The notes beneath the pieces were generated by a model. The model saw only the letters and a list, made by a program, of their open reading frames with translations. It was not told where the DNA came from and did no database searches. From positions 1-64,000 of the forward strand of contig JARGNI010000016.1 in NCBI GenBank assembly GCA_029213195.1: a stretch of DNA of 64,000 nt. The letters run 5' to 3'. The stretch comes from Verrucomicrobiales bacterium. GTDB lineage: Bacteria; Verrucomicrobiota; Verrucomicrobiia; Verrucomicrobiales; DEV007. Position numbers and translations under genes: made by a program. Below are positions 12,184 to 61,638 of this stretch, one piece after another (within the stretch, counting starts at the first letter, position 1; every line of letters starts with the position of its first letter).

Positions 12184-13245
12184 ATGTCCGAAGACACCAT
12201 CAAACTTACGTCCCTTTCATCCTGCGCAGGGTGAGCCTCCAAGCTTAGCCAGGAGGCACTCGCGCAAGTTTTGCGTGGGCTCAGTCAGTTCGAAGACCCG
12301 AATCTTCTCGTGGGTGCCAGCACCTCGGATGACGCGGCCGTCTATCGTCTCAGCAATGATCTCGCGATGGTGCAGACCGTGGATTTTTTCACGCCCATCG
12401 TCGACGACCCGTATCTTTACGGAGAAATTGCGGCGACGAATTCACTTTCCGATGTCTACGCGATGGGAGGGAAACCGATCACCGCGATGAACATCGTGGG
12501 AATGCCGGCCGATGTTCTTTCACTCGACGTCATCCGGGAAATCCTCCGAGGAGGGGCCGACAAAGTGAAGGAGGCCAAGTGTGCCCTGGCTGGAGGTCAT
12601 TCGATCAAGAACCCCGAGCCCATCTATGGGCTTTCCGTGACCGGACTGGTCAATCCCAACCGGATGATCACCAACGCGGGAGCGGAACCGGGGGATGTGC
12701 TCGTTCTCACGAAACCCCTCGGAACCGGAATCCTGACCACGGGGATCAAGCGCGGTCTCGCCGAGGGCGCGATCGTGATCGAAGCAATTTCCCTGATGAG
12801 CCGCCTCAACACCCCGGGACAAAGGCTCGCTGAGGAAGGTCTCGTCAAGTGCGCTACGGATGTCACCGGATTTGGATTGCTCGGGCATCTCGTATCCCTT
12901 TGCCGATCCAGCGGCACTCGCGCTGTGATTCATTCCAGTGACATTCCTGCGATTTCTCCGGAGATCCTCCGATTGATCGAGGAGGAAGATTGTGTACCCG
13001 GAGGAACGAAGCAGAATCTCAAGACCGCTGAGGCCGATACCCAGTTTGCGGAGCAGGTTCCCCAGGCGATGAAATATCTCCTCGCCGATGCCCAAACCAG
13101 CGGAGGCCTTCTCTGCTGCGTTCCCGAAGCAAATCTTCCGCGGGTCATGGAGATTTTCGAAGACGAGGATACGCTTTCTCACGCCGTGGTCGGTCACATC
13201 ACCCCGGCAGGGGAAGAAGGGCTGAAACTGGTCTCCGTGGTGTAG
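12184..13245 (+). CDS. selD: Selenophosphate synthetase SelD, itself a selenoprotein (UGA = Sec17)
   Basis: SelD makes selenophosphate from selenide and ATP. The full frame of 353 residues starts at ATG 12184 and contains one in-frame TGA at 12232-12234. Translated through, the N-terminus is MSEDTIKLTSLSSCAG-U17-A-S-K20, aligning with E. coli SelD Cys17 and Lys20, the catalytic pair. Downstream are the expected NLLVGASTSDDAAVY, TVDFFTPIVDDPYLYGEIAATNSLSDVYAMGG, ALAGGHSI, ATDVTGFGLLGHL and ADAQTSGGLL motifs. A conventional call would begin at TTG 12271 and lose the active site. Sec forms of SelD are known in several lineages. It heads an operon with selA, an ABC transporter and selB, and its product would also serve SenB. 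Confidence 0.93.
12235..12279 (+). promoter_or_regulatory. Bacterial SECIS-like element in selD
   Basis: Immediately after the TGA at 12232-12234 there is a 6-bp hairpin (12235-12240 with 12252-12257). A second hairpin pairs 12259-12267 with 12271-12279: nine pairs including two G-U, and a GUU loop at 12268-12270. The second apical loop begins 33 bases after the UGA and starts with G, fitting the known bacterial SECIS pattern of a loop 16-37 bases downstream with a G in its first two positions. SelB would bind here to deliver Sec-tRNA. Confidence 0.75.
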
Positions 13246-13365
13246 AGGAGCGGGCTCAATCCAAGTAGCGGAATCAGCCATGATTCCGACACTCTGCGCC
13301 TCCCCTGGAAATCCCGGTAGTTGCAATTCGGTTTGGCTCTGTCGATAGTTGTCCAAGCTGTCGAC

Positions 13366-14778
13366 ATGAGTTCGAAAACCCCGAATCCTTTCTCCCTCAT
13401 CCCTGCGGTGGACAAAGCCCTCCACTCGCTCCAGCAGCGGGAGGACCTGGCACCTTTGCCGCTCCCTCTCGTGACGGACTTGGTCCGAGAGGCGGTCGAA
13501 TCTCTCCGCGACGAGGTGAAAGAGGGACGAACCGATGTCCCGGAGTTTGATGCCTTTGTCGAAGAAGTCGCGGCCAAGGTCGACTCTCTCTATCGTTCGC
13601 GGATTCATCCCGTCATCAATGGGACCGGGGTCTGCATCCACACCAACCTCGGGCGCTCTCCGCTGAGCCCCAGGGTCGTCGAGGCGCTCACCGGGGTGGG
13701 ACAGTTCTACAACAATATCGAGCTTGATCTCGACTCGGGGGAGCGAGGGAAGCGGGGCGGTTATCTCGAGACCTGTCTTGCGACCCTCATCGGTGCGGAA
13801 TCAGCCACGATCACGAACAATTGTGCGGCTGCCCTCATCCTGATGCTGAAACACCTCGCGAACGGAGAACGCAACGAGGTGATCATTTCCCGAGGGGAGC
13901 TCGTCGAAATCGGTGGCGGCTTTCGGGTTCCCGAGATCATGGAGGCCAGTGGAGCGAAACTGGTCGAGGTCGGGGCGACCAACAAGACCTCCCTCGCAGA
14001 CTACGAAAATGCGATCACGGAAAAGACAGGGATGCTTCTCAAGGTGCATCGTTCAAATTTCTGGATGGATGGATTCACCCACGAGCCCACCACCGAGGAG
14101 CTGGTGGAACTGGGGAAAGCGCACGACCTTCCTGTCGTCGAGGATCTCGGGAGCGGAGCGATGGTGATGACCGATTCACTCGCCCCGATCCCTCACGAAC
14201 CCACTGCGATGGAGGTCCTGCAACGTGGCGTCGACCTCGTCTGTGTCAGTGGGGACAAGCTCCTCGGTGGACCTCAGGCCGGAATCATTGCGGGACGCGC
14301 CGATCTCGTCGCCGGGATCAAGAAGGAACCGTTCTTTCGCGCGTTGCGTTGCGACAAGCTCATTCTCACTGCGATGCAGGAGACCATCGTGGAGTATCTT
14401 GGCACGGAGTCCGGGCAGAAACCGGAGCTGCCTCTCATGAGAATGCTTTCGGCGAGCGTGGAAGGGGATCTTCGTCCAAGGGCCGAAGCAATCATGGCGG
14501 AGCTGAAGGACCTTGAGGAATTGGAGATCGGCACGGTGGAGACCATTGCTCGATGTGGCGGAGGAACGATGCCCAAAGCCGAGATTCCTTCCCTGGCGCT
14601 CGATATCCAGCCGAAGACGATGAGTCTTCCCAAGTTGGCGAAAAAGTTGCGAGAGCGAGAGTTACCTCTCATGGGGTACGTTGCCGAAGACCGGTTTCGG
14701 ATCGATCTGCGAACCGTTTTCCCAGAACAGGATCAGAAACTTTCCGAAAATTTTCTCGCAATTTTCGGTAAGTTTTGA
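13366..14778 (+). CDS. selA: L-seryl-tRNA(Sec) selenium transferase SelA
   Basis: PLP enzyme of 470 residues that converts seryl-tRNA(Sec) to selenocysteyl-tRNA(Sec) with selenophosphate. Motifs include the N-terminal IPAVDKALHS, HPVINGTGVCIHTNLGRSPLS, the cofactor lysine K298 in SGDKLLGGPQAGII (E. coli K295), and the C-terminal CGGGTMPKAEIPS. The start is set at M-S-S-K-T-P; an upstream in-frame alternative adds a short unconvincing extension. It follows selD by 120 bases and precedes the transporter genes on the same strand. Length is normal for the family. Confidence 0.96.
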   Translation: MSSKTPNPFSLIPAVDKALHSLQQREDLAPLPLPLVTDLVREAVESLRDEVKEGRTDVPEFDAFVEEVAAKVDSLYRSRIHPVINGTGVCIHTNLGRSPLSPRVVEALTGVGQFYNNIELDLDSGERGKRGGYLETCLATLIGAESATITNNCAAALILMLKHLANGERNEVIISRGELVEIGGGFRVPEIMEASGAKLVEVGATNKTSLADYENAITEKTGMLLKVHRSNFWMDGFTHEPTTEELVELGKAHDLPVVEDLGSGAMVMTDSLAPIPHEPTAMEVLQRGVDLVCVSGDKLLGGPQAGIIAGRADLVAGIKKEPFFRALRCDKLILTAMQETIVEYLGTESGQKPELPLMRMLSASVEGDLRPRAEAIMAELKDLEELEIGTVETIARCGGGTMPKAEIPSLALDIQPKTMSLPKLAKKLRERELPLMGYVAEDRFRIDLRTVFPEQDQKLSENFLAIFGKF

Positions 14779-14885
14779 AAGGTTTCCGCGTCTTGTCTTC
14801 TGCCGGGATCCAATCCGGATCTCCGGCCGTAGACAACATGGTCAAAAATGATCAAAACCTATCCAGAATCCAAACCATACCCACG

Positions 14886-15818
14886 ATGTTGAAAAGTAAT
14901 CTTTTCCGCGTCGGTCTGGCAGCGGTAACTACTCTGGCCCTTGTCGGCTGCGGTGGTGATCCGTCGTCGGCTGACAATAACAAAACCCCTCCGGAAGCTC
15001 CTTCCGCTACCTTCTACCTTTCGGCGATTCCCGACGAGAAGATCACCGACCAGAAGGTGAAGTTCGACAAGCTCGCGGACTACCTCACGGCTCAACTCGG
15101 AGTCGAAACCGAGTTTGTCTTCTCCAAGGACTACGCCGATTCCGTGACCAAGTTCAAGAATGGAGAAGTCCATCTTGTGTGGTTCGGAGGTCTTTCCGGC
15201 GTCCAGGCTCGCATGGCTGTGCCCGGATCCGAAGCGATTGCCCAAGGCAAAGCTGACCCGAAATACAAGTCTTACATCATTGCGAACAAGGATGCGGGTC
15301 TGGAGCCTGCTGAGGCGTTTCCAGCAGCAATCAAGGACAAGACTTTCACCTTTGGTTCTCCTGGTTCGACTTCCGGTCGTCTCATGCCGACTTTCTTCAT
15401 CATGCAGAACAACGGCGGAGTGCACCCCGACGAGTGGTTCGCGACGAAGCCTGGTTTTCAAATGAGCGGTGGTCATGTAGCCACGGCCAACGCAGTTGCG
15501 GACGGGACCTACGAGACGGGAGCGATCAACTACAAGACCTACGACTCCCTCGTGGAGAGTGATCCCAAGATCGCGGACAACACCGTCAAGATCTGGACGA
15601 CTCCGTTCTATGCCGACTACAATTTCACGATCCATCCGGATGTGAAGAAGGCATTCGGCGATGACTTCATCACCAAGGTGCAAGCCGCATTGGTTGCCGC
15701 GCCCGCTGGCTCGGAGGCCCTCAAGGCGATCAACCGTGAGGCCATCATTCCTGCGAAGAACGAAGACTTCGACGGTATCAAGGACACCGCGATCCAAATG
15801 GGCCTCATCGAAGGCTGA
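14886..15818 (+). CDS. PhnD-like ABC transporter substrate-binding lipoprotein (putative selenium oxyanion uptake)
   Basis: Protein of 310 residues with a lipoprotein signal: M-L-K-S start, hydrophobic segment, lipobox L-V-G-C at about residues 18-21. The mature part matches the phosphonate/phosphite periplasmic binding family: SAIPDEKITDQKVKFDKLADYL, VHLVWFGGLSGVQAR, TFGSPGSTSGRLMPTFF and the ETGAINYKTYDSLV segment. It would capture the substrate outside the inner membrane for the ATPase and permeases downstream. Placement between selA and selB, with no C-P lyase or phosphonatase genes, argues for a selenium compound. A selenate-type branch of this family has been annotated next to sel genes elsewhere. 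Substrate remains inference. Confidence 0.85.
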   Translation: MLKSNLFRVGLAAVTTLALVGCGGDPSSADNNKTPPEAPSATFYLSAIPDEKITDQKVKFDKLADYLTAQLGVETEFVFSKDYADSVTKFKNGEVHLVWFGGLSGVQARMAVPGSEAIAQGKADPKYKSYIIANKDAGLEPAEAFPAAIKDKTFTFGSPGSTSGRLMPTFFIMQNNGGVHPDEWFATKPGFQMSGGHVATANAVADGTYETGAINYKTYDSLVESDPKIADNTVKIWTTPFYADYNFTIHPDVKKAFGDDFITKVQAALVAAPAGSEALKAINREAIIPAKNEDFDGIKDTAIQMGLIEG

Positions 15819-15881
15819 TCTGCATTGTCACGGGCGCCAGGGATGGGAACATGATCCCATCCTCTGCCCGATTTCTCTTCC

Positions 15882-16655
15882 ATGTCGCATTCCATTCAGC
15901 TTGAGAACGCGACATGCCGATTTGGAGACCTCGTCGCTGTCGACGAGGTCTCTTTTTCTATCGAGGCAGGAGAGCGAGTCGCCTTCATTGGCCCCAGTGG
16001 CAGTGGAAAGACGACCCTGATCCGCCTCATCAACAGCATGCGGGTTCCCGACGAGGGAACGGTAACTGTGTTGGGCGAAGGTATCGCCGATTTGAAGGTG
16101 AAGGAGTTGCGAACCCTTCGAGCACGAGTCGCTACGATTCCTCAACACCTCGGACTTGTCGAGAACCTCACGGCAATCCAGAACGTCATCCTCGGTCGAG
16201 GAGGGAAACGAGGAACCTTTCGATCCCTGCGTGATCTCCTTTTCCCCAGTCGGAAAGACCAGGAAACGATTCACGCCCTCCTGGACCGAGTCGGGATCGA
16301 AGACAAACTTTTCACGCGAGTCTCTCAGCTTTCCGGTGGGCAACGTCAGCGCGTCGCGATTGCACGGGCCCTTTTCCAGGAGCCGGATGTGATTCTTGCG
16401 GACGAACCCGTTTCCGCCGTCGATCCCGCCCGGGCACGGGATACTGTGGACTTGCTCTGCTCCCTGTCCGAGGAAGATGGCTACACGCTTTGTGTCAGTC
16501 TCCACCACCTCGAACTGGCCCGGGAGTTTTTCCCCAGGCTGATCGGGTTGCGGTCCGGAAAGGTGGTTCTCGATGGCGCTCCGGAAACCCTGCAGGAGTC
16601 CGAACTCACCGAACTCTACGAGTTGTCGGACGAAGAGATGATGGCCGATGCCTGA
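15882..16655 (+). CDS. PhnC-like ABC transporter ATP-binding protein
   Basis: ATPase of 257 residues. Walker A GPSGSGKTT is at about 37-45, the Q-loop at IPQHLGL, the signature LSGGQRQRVAIARAL near 150, Walker B DVILADEP near 170 and the H-loop at SLHHLEL. The sequence context (GRGGKRGTFRSLRDLLFPSRKD insertion before the signature) resembles PhnC-type ATPases. The gene lies 63 bases after the binding lipoprotein and its end overlaps the first permease by eight bases, so it is translationally coupled. It energises the transporter embedded in the sel operon. Confidence 0.92.
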   Translation: MSHSIQLENATCRFGDLVAVDEVSFSIEAGERVAFIGPSGSGKTTLIRLINSMRVPDEGTVTVLGEGIADLKVKELRTLRARVATIPQHLGLVENLTAIQNVILGRGGKRGTFRSLRDLLFPSRKDQETIHALLDRVGIEDKLFTRVSQLSGGQRQRVAIARALFQEPDVILADEPVSAVDPARARDTVDLLCSLSEEDGYTLCVSLHHLELAREFFPRLIGLRSGKVVLDGAPETLQESELTELYELSDEEMMADA

Positions 16656-17577
16656 CCTCGATCCAGGGAAAGAACGAGCAAGCCTCGAACGAGGAGGCCT
16701 TGCATTGCCCTCGGGCGAGGGACGGTATGGGCGTCGCCGCTGGGTCGTCCTCGGAGTCGGGATTGTCTTCCTGATTTGCGCCTGGAGGCTGGGCCTCACT
16801 CCCGCCGGGCTGATTCCTCCTGACGCGACGCGTTGGGAAAGGGCGGGGGAGTTTTTCAAAGCAGCCCTGGATCCGGCGATGGACTACGAGGACGAGAATG
16901 TCCCCGACGATGCCGATCCCATCTGGATCAAGGGGCTCAAAGGAGTCGGGCTGACCCTGAAGTTCGCCTTCGGGGCGATGAGCATGGCGGTGCCTTTCGC
17001 TCTTCTGCTAGGATTTCTCGGCTCTTCTTCCTGGTGGCCGGAACCCTGTGGCAAGGGATTGAAGGCCGTTTTGCGGACACTTTATCTCTCGTGCCGATTT
17101 CTGATGAGCCTGTTGCGTTCGATCCACGAGTTGATCTGGGCTTTGCTTATCCTATCCGCGATCGGGGTTTCGCCTCTCGCGGGCATGGTGGCGCTCGCCC
17201 TGCCATTCTCAGGAACTCTGGGAAAGGTCTTCTCGGAACTCATCGATGAAGAGGCGCGTGACGCCGCTGCCGCGCTCAAAGCGATCGGGCACCGACCGGT
17301 GCAGACCTTTCTCTGTGGGACTTTGCCCGCTGCCTTGCCGAATCTCATTACCTACAGCTTCTATCGATTCGAATGCGCACTTCGTTCTTCCGCGGTGCTC
17401 GGGTTTGTCGGGATCGAAACGATCGGACTCTACATCGAGCTCTCGCATGAAGAGTTCTACTATCGCGAAGTCTGGACCTATCTCTATCTCCTGCTCGCCC
17501 TCATCGTTCTGGTCGATTTCTGGGGTGCTGGGATCCGCAAACGACTCAACTCAGATGCGGGAGGGTGTCGGGCATGA
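16648..17577 (+). CDS. PhnE-like ABC transporter permease, first copy
   Basis: Membrane protein of 309 residues with about six hydrophobic segments, the first near residues 30-50. The BPD_transp-type coupling region is visible as DEEARDAAAALKAIGHRPVQTFLCGTLPAALPNLITY, followed by FECALRSSAVLGFVG, a pattern typical of PhnE proteins. It overlaps the ATPase gene by eight bases and the second permease by four. Two non-identical permeases in one operon indicate a heterodimeric channel, as seen in some phosphonate-type transporters. Confidence 0.88.
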   Translation: MPDLDPGKERASLERGGLALPSGEGRYGRRRWVVLGVGIVFLICAWRLGLTPAGLIPPDATRWERAGEFFKAALDPAMDYEDENVPDDADPIWIKGLKGVGLTLKFAFGAMSMAVPFALLLGFLGSSSWWPEPCGKGLKAVLRTLYLSCRFLMSLLRSIHELIWALLILSAIGVSPLAGMVALALPFSGTLGKVFSELIDEEARDAAAALKAIGHRPVQTFLCGTLPAALPNLITYSFYRFECALRSSAVLGFVGIETIGLYIELSHEEFYYREVWTYLYLLLALIVLVDFWGAGIRKRLNSDAGGCRA

Positions 17578-18467
17578 ACGATCGGATCGTTGAGCTTCGC
17601 AAACGCCGTTCGAAGAGTCTCTATCTTCGGATCAGCGGACTCCTTGTCCTCCTGGGAATCGCCTGGGCATGGACGACGAGTTCGCCCCTCATGGGACGGC
17701 TCTCGGCAGAACGTCGCTGGACGAACTTTCAGAACTTTGTCCAGGAACTGGTTCCTTCTCCGGTCCGAAGGACTGGCGATTGGAGCGACGCTTTTCCATG
17801 GGCCTGGGATCTCCTCACCGATGAAGGGCTCCAGGCCTTGCTCACGACGCTGGGGATTGCCACGGCCGCGATCATTCTCTCTGGGGTTTTCGTTCTGCCC
17901 ATGCTCACCCTGGCGAGTCGCGAGTTGAGTCGGCGTCGACCTTTTGGGCTTTGGTCAGGGAAATCTTCCCGTGTCATGCAGGCCGTGCGTGTTGTCGTGG
18001 GTCCGGTAACTCGATTTGCGTTCGTGCTCGCGAGGGCGGTGCCGGAATACATCCTCGCTTTTCTCCTCATTTCCCTGCTCGGGCTCCAGGTCTGGCCGCT
18101 CGTCCTCGCCCTTGCGATTCACAATTTTGGAATTCTCGGGCGGCTCTGGGGCGAGGTCGTCGAGAATGCCGAGCCTTCTTCGGCACAGCAGGCCCTGATC
18201 TCCGGTCAGGGGAGAACCGGGGCCTTTGCAACTCGAATTCTCCCAGAGAGCTTCAATCGATTTCTGATCTACTTTCTCTACCGATGGGAGACCTGTGTCA
18301 AAGATGCTACCGTTCTTGGAATGCTGGGATTGCTGACTCTCGGAAAACTCATTGCGCTTTCGAAAGGCTTTTTCTGGGACCAGATGTTTTTCTATGTCCT
18401 CCTCGCGGCCTCCGTGATCGTGATCGGGGACCTCTTTTCGACTTTCCTGCGGCGCCGTTTGCGCTAA
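17574..18467 (+). CDS. PhnE-like ABC transporter permease, second copy
   Basis: Membrane protein of 297 residues. ATG at 17574 overlaps the preceding stop in an ATGA junction. A GTG nine bases earlier is possible but less likely. The first membrane segment is at about 20-35, with further ones beyond residue 90. The coupling region reads WGEVVENAEPSSAQQALISGQGRTGAFATRILPESFNRFLIYFLYRWETCVKDATVLGMLG, equivalent to that of the first permease, although overall similarity appears low. It ends 12 bases before selB, tying the transporter to the selenocysteine machinery. Confidence 0.88.
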   Translation: MNDRIVELRKRRSKSLYLRISGLLVLLGIAWAWTTSSPLMGRLSAERRWTNFQNFVQELVPSPVRRTGDWSDAFPWAWDLLTDEGLQALLTTLGIATAAIILSGVFVLPMLTLASRELSRRRPFGLWSGKSSRVMQAVRVVVGPVTRFAFVLARAVPEYILAFLLISLLGLQVWPLVLALAIHNFGILGRLWGEVVENAEPSSAQQALISGQGRTGAFATRILPESFNRFLIYFLYRWETCVKDATVLGMLGLLTLGKLIALSKGFFWDQMFFYVLLAASVIVIGDLFSTFLRRRLR

Positions 18468-18479
18468 GTAAAGAGCCTC

Positions 18480-20423
18480 ATGTCGTCCCGCCATTACATC
18501 ATCGGAACCGCTGGTCATATCGACCACGGCAAGAGCTCGTTGATTGAAGCGCTGACGGGGACCGATCCGGATCGACTTCCCGAAGAGAAAGCGCGCGGCA
18601 TGACGATCGAGTTGGGGTTTGCCCAGCTCAGTCTCCCGGCGAGCGACGATTCCAGCGATGAACTGGCCCTCGGGGTCGTCGATGTTCCGGGTCATGCCGA
18701 TTTCGTGAAAAACATGGTCGCCGGGGTCGGGGCAATCGATCTCGCTCTTTTCATCGTCGCGGCCGACGACGGGTGGATGCCCCAGACCGAGGAGCATTAC
18801 CAGATTCTCAACTATCTCGGAGTGAAGAACGCCGTTGTCGTTCTCACGAAGGTCGACCTCGTCGACGATCTTGATTTGGTCTTGATGGATCTCGAAGAGA
18901 ACCTGGAGGGAGGGCTCTGGGAGAAAGCCCCGGTGATGCCGGTTTCTTCACACACCGGCGCGGGGATTGAGGAACTTCGGGCGACCATTTCCCAGATGCT
19001 GACCGAATCGGGTCCGGTGCGAAACGTCGGGAAACCTCGGTTGCCCGTGGATCGCGCTTTTTCCCTCAAAGGTGTCGGGACGGTTGTCACGGGAACCCTG
19101 ACCGATGGAGATATCGAAGTCGGGAGCGACTACGCGATCCAACCCGGAGGCGAGATCGCTCATGTTCGAAGTGCCCAATCTCATGGAGCCTCGGTCGAAT
19201 CGGTTCCCCCCGGAACGCGAACCGCGGTCAATCTCACTGGAGTCAGTTTGCGGGAAAGCCGGGGAGTAGCACGCGATGGAATCGCACGGGGAGATGTCCT
19301 CGTTCCGCAGGGATTTGGAGATGCCTCTCTCGTCATCGATGTTCGGATTTCGAAATCCAATCGAGAGATCCGGGGGATGAAGCAATCGAAGAAGGCGATC
19401 CGGACCGGACGAGAGGTCATGTTTCACCACGGCAGTTCGGGAGTGCCGGCGAGAATTCATTTTCTCGGGCAGCGTTCTCTTTCACCCGGCGAGACTGTGC
19501 TCGCCGAGCTTCGTTTCTCCGAGCCTGTGTATGTATTTGTCGGGGACGGTTTCGTGATTCGCGACGCTTCGCTGGGGCTGACCCTGGGAGGTGGAATCGT
19601 TCTCGACGAGAATGCCAATCGAAGGGCCTTCCGAAAGCCGTTCCAGGCGGCCTTTCTCGAAGCCCGGGCAGAGAATCCGCACGAGCTATCCGTATTGGTG
19701 AAATCGCAGTTGATCCGGGACCGGGTTGCCTTTCTCCCGGATCTGCTCAAGAGATCCGGTTTCTCAGAGCAGGGCATCCGGGAAGAAGCGGAGAAGCTCG
19801 TCGCCGAGGGGGAGTTGGAGCAGAACGGCGACTGGGTCTTTCTCGCTGAATGGTGGCGGAAGATTCGGACGATTGCCGGAGACAAAGTCCGAAAGATTCA
19901 CCAGGATCATCCCGAGCAATTGGGCCTGCCTTTGCGCGACCTTCGAGCGATGATGGAGCCCGAGCTGCCTTCGCCCAAATTCTTCGACATGGTCCTCGAA
20001 GGTCTCCTCGCCGGTGAGTTCGCAAAAGCGGGTCCCAACATCCGACAGCAGGACCACATTCCGCAGCTCCCTCCCGAGTTGAAAAGTTCCGGAGACCTCG
20101 TTCGCAAGCGCTTGGCTTCGGATTTGATCAGTCCTCCCAACAAGGGCGAGACGGCGACCAATGCGAACGAGGAGAAGGCGCTTCGTTTTCTCGTCCACAC
20201 CGGAGAGGTCATCGATCTCGATCCCAAGACCGTGATCTCGCGGGATGGATTCGAAAAGATTCTCTCAGAGATCGTCGGCTACCTGGAGGAGCATGGAAAA
20301 GCAACCGCCAGCGACCTGCGCCAGCACACGGGAACGGTTCGACGAATCCTGATGCCATTGCTCGAGCTTCTCGATGAGCGAGGTGTGACGGTTCGAGAGG
20401 GTGACGACCGACGTCTGAAGTAG
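18480..20423 (+). CDS. selB: Selenocysteine-specific elongation factor SelB
   Basis: Translation GTPase of 647 residues that delivers Sec-tRNA(Sec) to UGA codons bearing a SECIS. The GTP-binding domain shows G1 [12 protein letters not shown], the MTIELGFAQ effector region, [12 protein letters not shown] (G3) and LTKVDLVD (G4). Domain II follows with [19 protein letters not shown]. The C-terminal third holds the winged-helix repeats that bind SECIS RNA, ending with the [27 protein letters not shown] module. It is last in the sel/transporter operon. Its presence supports reading the two in-frame UGA codons in this window as Sec. Confidence 0.96.
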
Positions 20424-43624: not shown

Positions 43625-44902
43625 ATGAGTGAATTGGCACACGGTTTGTTGCTGCAAGAGCAGGGGAGATTGGAAGAGGCCGAGGCCTGTTTCCAGCAAG
43701 TCCTGATGCAGGAGCCGGAAAACGATTTCGTCTACGGTCGTCTCGCTCTCTGCCAGCTCAACCAGGAAGGGAAGAAGAAGGCGTCCCTGAGATCGGTCGA
43801 AGAGGCGATTCGAATCCGACCCGATGGAAGTTTTTACCATGCCCTCAAATCCCTGGTCCTCGCCGATCTGTGCAAAGGAAAAGAAAGCCTGGTGTCCGCC
43901 GATACCGCCCTTGCCCTGGCACCAGAAGACGGATTTGTCCTCGCGGCGAAGGCGAATGCGTTCTGTTCGCTCCAGCGGTGGGCAGAGGGAGAAGAATGGA
44001 GTCGCAAGGCACTCACGGCGGATGGCGAACACCCCATGGCGACAAACCTGCTGGCTCACTGCCTGCGGATGCAGGGCAAGGGGGAAGAGAACCGGGAAGC
44101 CGTCGGGCGTCTTCTCGCGGCCGATCCGGAAAGCATCCTGGCCCATGTCAACGCTGGATGGAGTGCATTGCAACACGGGGAGCAGGAACAGGCGGAATCC
44201 CACTTTCGCGAAGCACTACGGATCGACCCGGAGCTGGACATGGCTCGCGAGGGTTTGATCGAGTCCTTCCGAGCGCGGTCCATCTTTTATCGAGCCTACC
44301 TCTCGTATGTTTTTTTTCTCCAGCGATTCACCCAGGGGCGAAAATGGATGATCCTGATTGGGATCATCGTGATCTACCAAGTGAGCTGGCGCTTGCTGGA
44401 GCGAGTCCACCCCATGGCCGCGGTCGGGGTCGGGCTTCTCTTTCTCACCCTGGTGATGTGGATCTGGCTCGCTCCGGGGGTGGGGAATTTCCTGATCCTG
44501 ATGGATCGTTCCGCCCGTCTCGCGCTGCGGCCAAGAGAAAAAGGGCAGGGGATCGCCGTAGGAGGAGCGGTGGTAGTGGGGCTTGTCCTCGTAACCGTCG
44601 GGGTCTTCGCCGAGATCCTCCCTGCGATTTTCTCGGGCGGCTGCCTGATCGCTTCCGCCGTTCCTGCGTCGCTTTCCTGGGGGAACGAGTCGAGAGCGGG
44701 TCGACGAGTCTTTGGCAGCATCACTGGGGTGCTCTATGGCCTCGCGGTGATTCTTCCCCTGCTCCTGATGGGGCAGAAAGTGACAAGCGAGGATGACTTG
44801 CCTCCGTTGGTTGCTCCGATTTCCCTCTTTGGTCTGCTTCTCGTAGTGGCTTCTACCTGGCTGGGGAATCTGCAATCGCTGCGAACTCCTACCGAAGAGT
44901 GA
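43625..44902 (+). CDS. TPR-repeat membrane protein
   Basis: Protein of 425 residues with tetratricopeptide-like repeats over about residues 1-215 (for example LAHGLLLQEQGRLEEAEACFQQVLMQEPEN and NAGWSALQHGEQEQAESHFREALRIDPE). Five or six hydrophobic helices follow between about 240 and 420. Family unknown. It appears to form an operon with the TPR-AAA ATPase upstream, implying a membrane-linked complex. Nothing in the sequence indicates a substrate. Confidence 0.78.
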   Translation: MSELAHGLLLQEQGRLEEAEACFQQVLMQEPENDFVYGRLALCQLNQEGKKKASLRSVEEAIRIRPDGSFYHALKSLVLADLCKGKESLVSADTALALAPEDGFVLAAKANAFCSLQRWAEGEEWSRKALTADGEHPMATNLLAHCLRMQGKGEENREAVGRLLAADPESILAHVNAGWSALQHGEQEQAESHFREALRIDPELDMAREGLIESFRARSIFYRAYLSYVFFLQRFTQGRKWMILIGIIVIYQVSWRLLERVHPMAAVGVGLLFLTLVMWIWLAPGVGNFLILMDRSARLALRPREKGQGIAVGGAVVVGLVLVTVGVFAEILPAIFSGGCLIASAVPASLSWGNESRAGRRVFGSITGVLYGLAVILPLLLMGQKVTSEDDLPPLVAPISLFGLLLVVASTWLGNLQSLRTPTEE

Positions 44903-60936: not shown

Positions 60937-61638
60937 CTACTCCGATGCCGAGCCCATCTCGGCCAGTTTGCTGAAAATGGCGGAGGAGCCGTTGGCAATT
61001 TCCTTCCCGTCCTTGTCTCTCAGCGAGTAATGAGGAACCGAGTTGCGGGTCCGGTAGTCGGAAAGGTCACTGCGAGGAACATCCTTGGGCAGAACGGTCA
61101 ACCAGGGGAATCCATGAGCCGCAGCCCAAGTTTCCGCGGCATCTTCGTCTCGATCCTGCGAAATGTGGATCATGGTGACCTTCGGGTTCTTCGCAATCAC
61201 TTCATTGTATTTCTCCACCAACTGTGGAGCAGAAGCGCGACAAGGGGGTCACCACGAAGCGGAGTAGTAGAACAGGTAGAATTCCGGAGTCTTCTCCAAC
61301 TCGGCTCGGCGATAGCGTTTTCCATCGAGGCGCTGCAGCTTGGCCTTGGCGACCTTCTTTCCTACTTCCGACTCGGTATCGGGGCCTGCCGAGGCAGATG
61401 GGGAAGAGGTGTTGTTCCAGTTTTTGAGCCACGTCTGATCATCGCTCGAAAGCTTGTCGATCGGGAAGGTAAGAAGCCTGCCGTCCTGGGTGACGACCGA
61501 AACCGTCCCCTTGGTGGCATCGAAGGTCCGGGCAGTACCTTCAAAGGTTTTGGTTCCATCGGCGCTGGTCCACGTCCGTTGCTCCGCAGATACTGAGACA
61601 AAGGCAAGAAGAACAGCTGCGCATATTGCTGTTTTCAT
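60937..61638 (-). CDS. Secreted thioredoxin-like selenoprotein, active site U-P-P-C
   Basis: The frame is open from ATG 61638 to TAG at 60937 apart from one TGA at 61249-61251. Read as selenocysteine (residue 130), the protein has 233 residues. It has a signal peptide (about 1-18), an SHD1-like domain (RTWTSADGTKTFEGTARTFD...LTFPIDKLSSDDQTWLKNW, about 20-72), a linker, then a thioredoxin-like domain with EFYLFYYSASW-U-P-P-C-R and the cis-Pro region NSVPHYSLRDKDGKEI. The UGA falls exactly where thioredoxins have the first Cys of CxxC, and coding character continues unchanged beyond it. A SECIS-like hairpin follows the codon. Role inferred: disulfide or peroxide redox chemistry outside the cytoplasm. 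Confidence 0.9.
61213..61229 (-). promoter_or_regulatory. Bacterial SECIS-like hairpin in the thioredoxin-like gene
   Basis: In the minus-strand transcript CUCCAC pairs with GUGGAG (6 bp) around the loop AGUUG. The loop begins 25 bases after the UGA and has G at its second position, within the spacing and loop rule known for bacterial SECIS elements. Confidence 0.75.

Follow-up and report, generated by a model that had tools for sequence, protein, structure and literature searches.

A long reading frame with one internal TGA

Does an in-frame TGA on the minus strand of this 64,000-nucleotide stretch of Verrucomicrobiales DNA (all of it referred to here as the window) separate two broken gene halves, or does it specify an amino acid within one protein? 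An earlier note, made from the sequence alone, had described two collinear frames of the same phase split only by the TGA at 61249–61251. These do form a single frame of 233 codons that runs from 61638 to 60937, with that TGA as its sole interruption and a TAG terminator at 60937–60939. The residues around the codon read S-A-S-W-U-P-P-C-R, placing the TGA where the first Cys of a W-C-P-P-C motif would be. Very likely, the apparent pair of gene halves is one gene, its product being an exported redox protein with selenocysteine (Sec) specified by the UGA. As interpreted here, its main features are the following:

60937–61638, minus strand: complete selenoprotein gene, 233 codons plus TAG, encoding a signal peptide, an SHD1 domain, a linker, and a Sec-thioredoxin domain
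61585–61638, minus strand: putative N-terminal signal peptide, residues 1–18 (MKTAICAAVLLAFVSVSA), an export signal predicted from sequence
61249–61251, minus strand: in-frame TGA (UGA), codon 130, first position of U-P-P-C, read as selenocysteine
61240–61242, minus strand: resolving Cys133 of U-x-x-C, invariant across the family
61033–61035, minus strand: Pro202 in V-P-H-Y, nearly invariant across the family

Pro202 occupies what we take to be the cis-proline position of the thioredoxin fold. The protein begins with M-K-T-A-I-C and has a hydrophobic N-terminal segment, and residues 1–16 are of low pLDDT in an AlphaFold2 (AF2) model. In two family members (L028 and L029), a lipobox-like LASC replaces the signal peptide. 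The source assembly comprises 5.9 Mb in 115 contigs and is 95% complete. The neighborhood of the gene holds no clue to a substrate, because the flanking pyrF, pyrE, and Na/Pi transporter genes were not matched within about 1.5 kb of it in 24 relatives.

Homologs with selenocysteine or cysteine

Translation table 11 treats TGA as an ordinary terminator, and an ORF finder divides the gene at this point. Read in that way, the locus would yield a secreted SHD1 protein of 129 residues, leaving the thioredoxin half as either a decaying remnant or a separate gene starting at TTG 61221. Homologs speak directly to this alternative. They occur in 61 of 115 related genomes, and 23 of those 61 genomes bear the TGA. 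In every Sec-form homolog read out (from 21 of the 23 TGA genomes, together with L046 and those of G332, G335, and G473), the TGA is the U of a U-x-x-C site and the thioredoxin half follows in frame. These sites are UPPC, UGPC, UAPC, and USPC, with U-A-S-C, U-R-E-C, U-G-A-C, and U-P-A-C in the divergent homologs. The Cys-form homologs, carried by genomes of the same genus and by g19 genomes of family f2, among others, have C-P-P-C or C-G-P-C at the site, and their reading frames continue through it. The homolog search that had been proposed as a check thus turned up both Cys and UGA at the critical codon, with protein continuing beyond it in either case.

The part of the protein beyond the TGA is under purifying selection, as judged from pairwise dN/dS values of about 0.05–0.17 where calculable, similar to those of the portion before the TGA. 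Moreover, the family alignment shows Cys133 to be invariant and Pro202 to be nearly so in this downstream part. These alignments support codon 130 as a sense position. A stop codon followed by a decayed downstream half is ruled out by the homologs and by selection, and we consider the ordinary-stop reading, in any of its versions, to be extremely improbable. Sequencing error at the TGA is also excluded, because the same codon recurs in more than 20 independent genomes. In short, three outcomes that would have spoken against the earlier proposal (homologs ending at the stop, an error at the TGA, and loss of coding signal past it) were each sought and did not materialize.

Homologs from one genus and from several families of a single order share the TGA at precisely this codon. 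In an even, phylum-wide draw of 388 genomes, the family is widespread in its Cys form, and the TGA form (E ≤ 1e-25) was recovered only within that same order. On a tree, six Sec/Cys changes are needed, five of which are forced by well-supported branches.

The Sec-form gene is tandemly duplicated at G015:C270:121-1771 and at G075:C1:3395232-3396386, and the second G075 copy is without the SHD1 domain. On the Cys side, the homologs at G343:C79:11336-12001 and G096:C6:124791-125504 (family f2, genus g19) each contain one in-frame TAG and are probably decayed.

A hairpin downstream of the UGA

A hairpin of the bacterial SECIS type follows the UGA:

61213–61229, minus strand: bacterial SECIS hairpin, 6-bp stem CUCCAC/GUGGAG, with the loop AGUUG at 61223–61219

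The earlier note had placed the start of a 6-bp hairpin with an AGUUG loop 25 bases after the TGA. The hairpin itself and the figure of 25 nt hold for the loop; the stem begins sooner, at 19 nt from the UGA. Published criteria for bacterial SECIS elements specify a loop of 3–9 nt, a stem of 4–16 bp, a G in the first two loop positions, a spacing of 16–37 nt, and a minimum free energy (MFE) of −7.5 kcal/mol or lower (PMC13188914). With a 5-nt loop, a 6-bp stem, a G at loop position 2 followed by U, a spacing of 25 nt, and an MFE of −9.1 kcal/mol, the hairpin falls within all four published bSECIS criteria (PMC13188914). Rfam returned no match to the hairpin itself. As for folding stability, the 44-nt context is not unusual (z −0.34), and the 21-nt element is (z −3.2).

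Covariation provides a further line of evidence. Across 29 Sec-form sequences, 94% of stem cells pair (slid stems pair at 32–64%), and four of the six pairs are altered on both sides, by changes from C-G to U-A, U-A to G-C, C-G to G-C, and A-U to G-C. Seven double-change cells were observed, versus 0.9 in shuffles. To see if the hairpin could follow from the peptide sequence by itself, a null model was made by redrawing codons synonymously. The 24 Sec rows averaged 5.71 pairs against an expected 3.52 ± 0.19, and 17 of them had full stems, against at most 4 across 2000 synonymous draws; the corresponding figures for 26 Cys rows were 3.04 pairs versus 2.68 expected. The loop begins with AG in 24 of 24 Sec rows and is not kept in the Cys rows, and by these measures the hairpin is largely decayed in the Cys homologs. 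A combined search for TGA-x-x-Cys followed by the hairpin at fixed spacing gave 29 matches in the 115 genomes and 0 in the reversed control. Taken from alignments, these patterns support the hairpin as a selected RNA element. They also bear on the separate gene postulated under the ordinary-stop reading, whose TTG at 61221 sits inside the SECIS loop; a protein started there would begin after the U-x-x-C site.

Where the SECIS would lie, two Cys-form genes (L031 in G106 and L032 in G085) retain all 6 bp of the stem (CUCCGC-AUCUU/G-GCGGAG) but no longer the loop G. It is possible that these stems are fossil SECIS elements left by a Sec-to-Cys change.

Genes for selenocysteine decoding

The earlier note's statement that the Sec decoding genes are present in the window was borne out, with selD, selA, and selB all found on the plus strand:

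12184–13245, plus strand: selD, selenophosphate synthetase, start codon inferred; itself a selenoprotein, with TGA at 12232–12234
13321–14778, plus strand: selA, L-seryl-tRNA(Sec) selenium transferase (TIGR00474, 521 bits, cut-off 267.9)
14775–15818, plus strand: substrate-binding protein of a putative selenium (selenate) ABC transporter (TIGR04553, 259.3 bits, cut-off 250)
16648–17577 and 17565–18467, plus strand: genes for two PhnE-like ABC permeases, assigned to that putative transporter (TIGR01097, below cut-off)
18480–20423, plus strand: selB, Sec-specific elongation factor (TIGR00475, 301.5 bits, cut-off 242)

The in-frame TGA of selD falls at the active site of the enzyme, in S-S-C-A-G-U-A-S-K-L, and the ORF list puts the selD start too late, at TTG 12271. 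The location of the putative selenate-type transporter (14775–18467, plus strand) between selA and selB suggests that the Sec gene cluster includes a system for selenium uptake.

Among the relatives, SelA occurs in 22 of the 23 TGA genomes versus 35 of the 92 others (Fisher p = 2.4e-7, uncorrected for relatedness). The one TGA genome without SelA, G039, has SelB. Conversely, SelB was absent above cut-off from two Sec-form genomes, G036 and G046, both of which have SelA and tRNA-Sec.

Many relatives, same-genus genomes included, have a tRNA-Sec of 90–95 nt. In the window's own 95% complete assembly, none was found by the Rfam model, by BLAST with a relative's tRNA, or by a model built from relatives; the candidates that did arise were Ser, Leu, Gly, Lys, or Trp tRNAs or a chance match. 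An assembly without a detected tRNA-Sec would be expected if the gene belonged to a true Sec family but had ceased to be decoded in this genome through loss of that tRNA. However, the genome has intact selA, selB, and selD genes and maintains both a Trx7/PDZ selenoprotein gene and a UGA-containing paralog, and the assembly is fragmented, making such a loss highly improbable. The missing tRNA is instead read as a probable assembly gap, because of the intact sel genes and the several UGA genes that remain, the curated Trx7/PDZ selenoprotein among them.

Could the UGA be translated as some other residue, through a change of code to Trp or Gly or through general suppression? An open frame by itself does not reveal the identity of the inserted residue, and beyond that nothing was found in favor of the idea. 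The replaced residue is the catalytic Cys, homologs carry Cys there, the SECIS hairpin is selected and covarying, and SelA, SelB, and SelD are present. In addition, genes of the window, including selA and selB, are open under table 11 with TGA as a stop. The chance of a non-Sec residue is accordingly next to negligible, and selenocysteine is the preferred reading of codon 130.

Protein architecture

Two domains follow the putative signal peptide:

61408–61584, minus strand: SHD1 (SLA1 homology domain 1), residues 19–77
60946–61377, minus strand: thioredoxin-fold domain (Thioredoxin_8/tryparedoxin-nucleoredoxin, ResA/TlpA-like), residues ~88–231

The N-terminal assignment draws on both sequence and fold. 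The window protein scores 19.9 bits with Pfam SHD1 (PF03983), short of the gathering score of 23.7, and an SHD1 match at E ≤ 0.01 is found in 13 of 32 family members. When the domain was predicted alone, its best PDB match was the Sla1 SHD1 structure 2hbp (Z 9.0 over 58 residues; next best, 5.3). Membership of the second domain in the thioredoxin fold (Thioredoxin_8/AhpC-TSA clan) is indicated by a Pfam score above cut-off, the predicted fold, the CxxC site, and the cis-Pro. In the AF2 model built from the family alignment (mean pLDDT 89), the closest structural alignments of this domain were to a filarial thioredoxin and to tryparedoxins (Z 13–15), followed by StoA and ResA (Z 11–12). The fusion of an SHD1-like domain to a Sec-thioredoxin fold, as originally surmised, is matched by predictions of both folds.

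A proposed function

Considering all of the above, the protein is taken, with a probability of roughly 95%, to be a thiol-disulfide oxidoreductase that is exported and whose attacking residue, the first of U-P-P-C, is selenocysteine. SelB, with GTP and Sec-tRNA(Sec), would bind the hairpin so that Sec is inserted, and the protein would then leave the cytoplasm through the Sec pathway. On the periplasmic side, Sec130 could attack substrate disulfides or, alternatively, selenenylsulfide- or peroxide-type substrates, and Cys133 would resolve the mixed bond much as in tryparedoxin or ResA. Re-reduction could come from a DsbD/CcdA-like electron carrier in the membrane. SHD1 may act as a module for protein binding or for positioning. 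Where a species lacks Sec decoding, the Cys version would presumably do the same job.

Relatives and known selenoproteins

Thioredoxin-like selenoproteins with a U-x-x-C site are an established kind, from the first set of such proteins (PMC1088965) to a 2026 inventory (PMC13188914). Those described as Sec thioredoxins, thiol-disulfide isomerase-like proteins, or redoxin-family proteins share with the present family the thioredoxin fold with U-x-x-C, the in-frame UGA, the bacterial SECIS, and widespread Cys homologs. The inventory entries are named by redox domain alone, unlike the SHD1-thioredoxin fusion, and the words SHD1 and Verrucomicrobi- are absent from the inventory's text (PMC13188914). 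One of its entries, a "Redoxin family protein" selenoprotein (PF08534, UxxC), could overlap with the family described here, the two having been compared by description only. The family reached no NCBIfam 2026 model above cut-off, and neither SHD1 combined with thioredoxin nor bacterial SHD1, its function included, turned up in the literature searched.

Other known proteins resemble one part or another. The closest solved structures are Thioredoxin_8 proteins of the tryparedoxin and nucleoredoxin-like kind (4fyu and tryparedoxins, Z 13–15), but these are eukaryotic, have Cys in place of Sec in those tested, and show no aligned SHD1 domain. ResA, StoA, and TlpA (DsbE-like) are exported, reductive thioredoxin-fold proteins with sequence similarity, yet they have a Cys site and no SHD1 domain, and the window protein scores 23.5–27 bits against ResA, DsbE, and StoA NCBIfam cut-offs of 123–210. 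As for Sla1 SHD1 (PF03983), the fold is the same as that of the N-terminal domain (Z 9.0 to 2hbp) and the sequence match is weak but repeated in the family; the domain differs here in its predicted export and in its fusion with a thioredoxin domain.

The same genome encodes two further Sec thioredoxin-like proteins. One is a putatively exported paralog without SHD1 (L002, G000:C79:122905-123312, minus strand), with the site S-A-S-W-U-G-G-C and a hairpin of the same loop on a compensated stem, CUGCAC-AGUUG-GUGCAG. Together with its sister genes in G035, G039, G051, G058, and G064 (U-G-A-C or U-G-F-C), it appears to constitute a second unnamed Sec thioredoxin-like family. The other (L123, G000:C55, ~1501) is the Trx7/PDZ selenoprotein, scoring 339 bits with NF041199 (cut-off 300); its F-R-U-E-S-U stretch, a U-x-x-U form, contains two in-frame TGAs. 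It is also an exported Sec thioredoxin-like protein but differs from the SHD1-thioredoxin family in domain order and in its partner domain, PDZ. Finally, a Sec thioredoxin-like protein of another genome (L121, G079:C34, ~44335-44371) has the reversed order, a U-G-P-C thioredoxin followed by a C-terminal SHD1-like segment, with the same SECIS loop.

A fair label for the SHD1-thioredoxin fusion is a new family within the known class of Sec thioredoxin-like proteins, subject to the possible overlap with the Redoxin entry. There is a good chance that it represents a previously unnamed Verrucomicrobiales selenoprotein family with at least five Sec/Cys switches, whose SECIS cassette, UGA-x-x-Cys followed at fixed spacing by CUCCACAGUUGGUGGAG, is nearly invariant and common to the SHD1-less sister family and the reversed-order Trx-SHD1 protein. 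The RNA element may in turn have fixed the local peptide A-P-Q-L-V-E.

Implications

Gene finders cut genes of this kind at the UGA, and the thioredoxin half would therefore go unannotated across Verrucomicrobiales MAGs. The family also offers a natural series of close Sec/Cys pairs in one exported enzyme, with same-genus pairs and a Cys clade in g19 of family f2, so that what Sec buys over Cys is testable on matched enzymes. More broadly, selenium use is thereby linked to envelope biology in a phylum hardly mentioned in the selenoprotein surveys searched.
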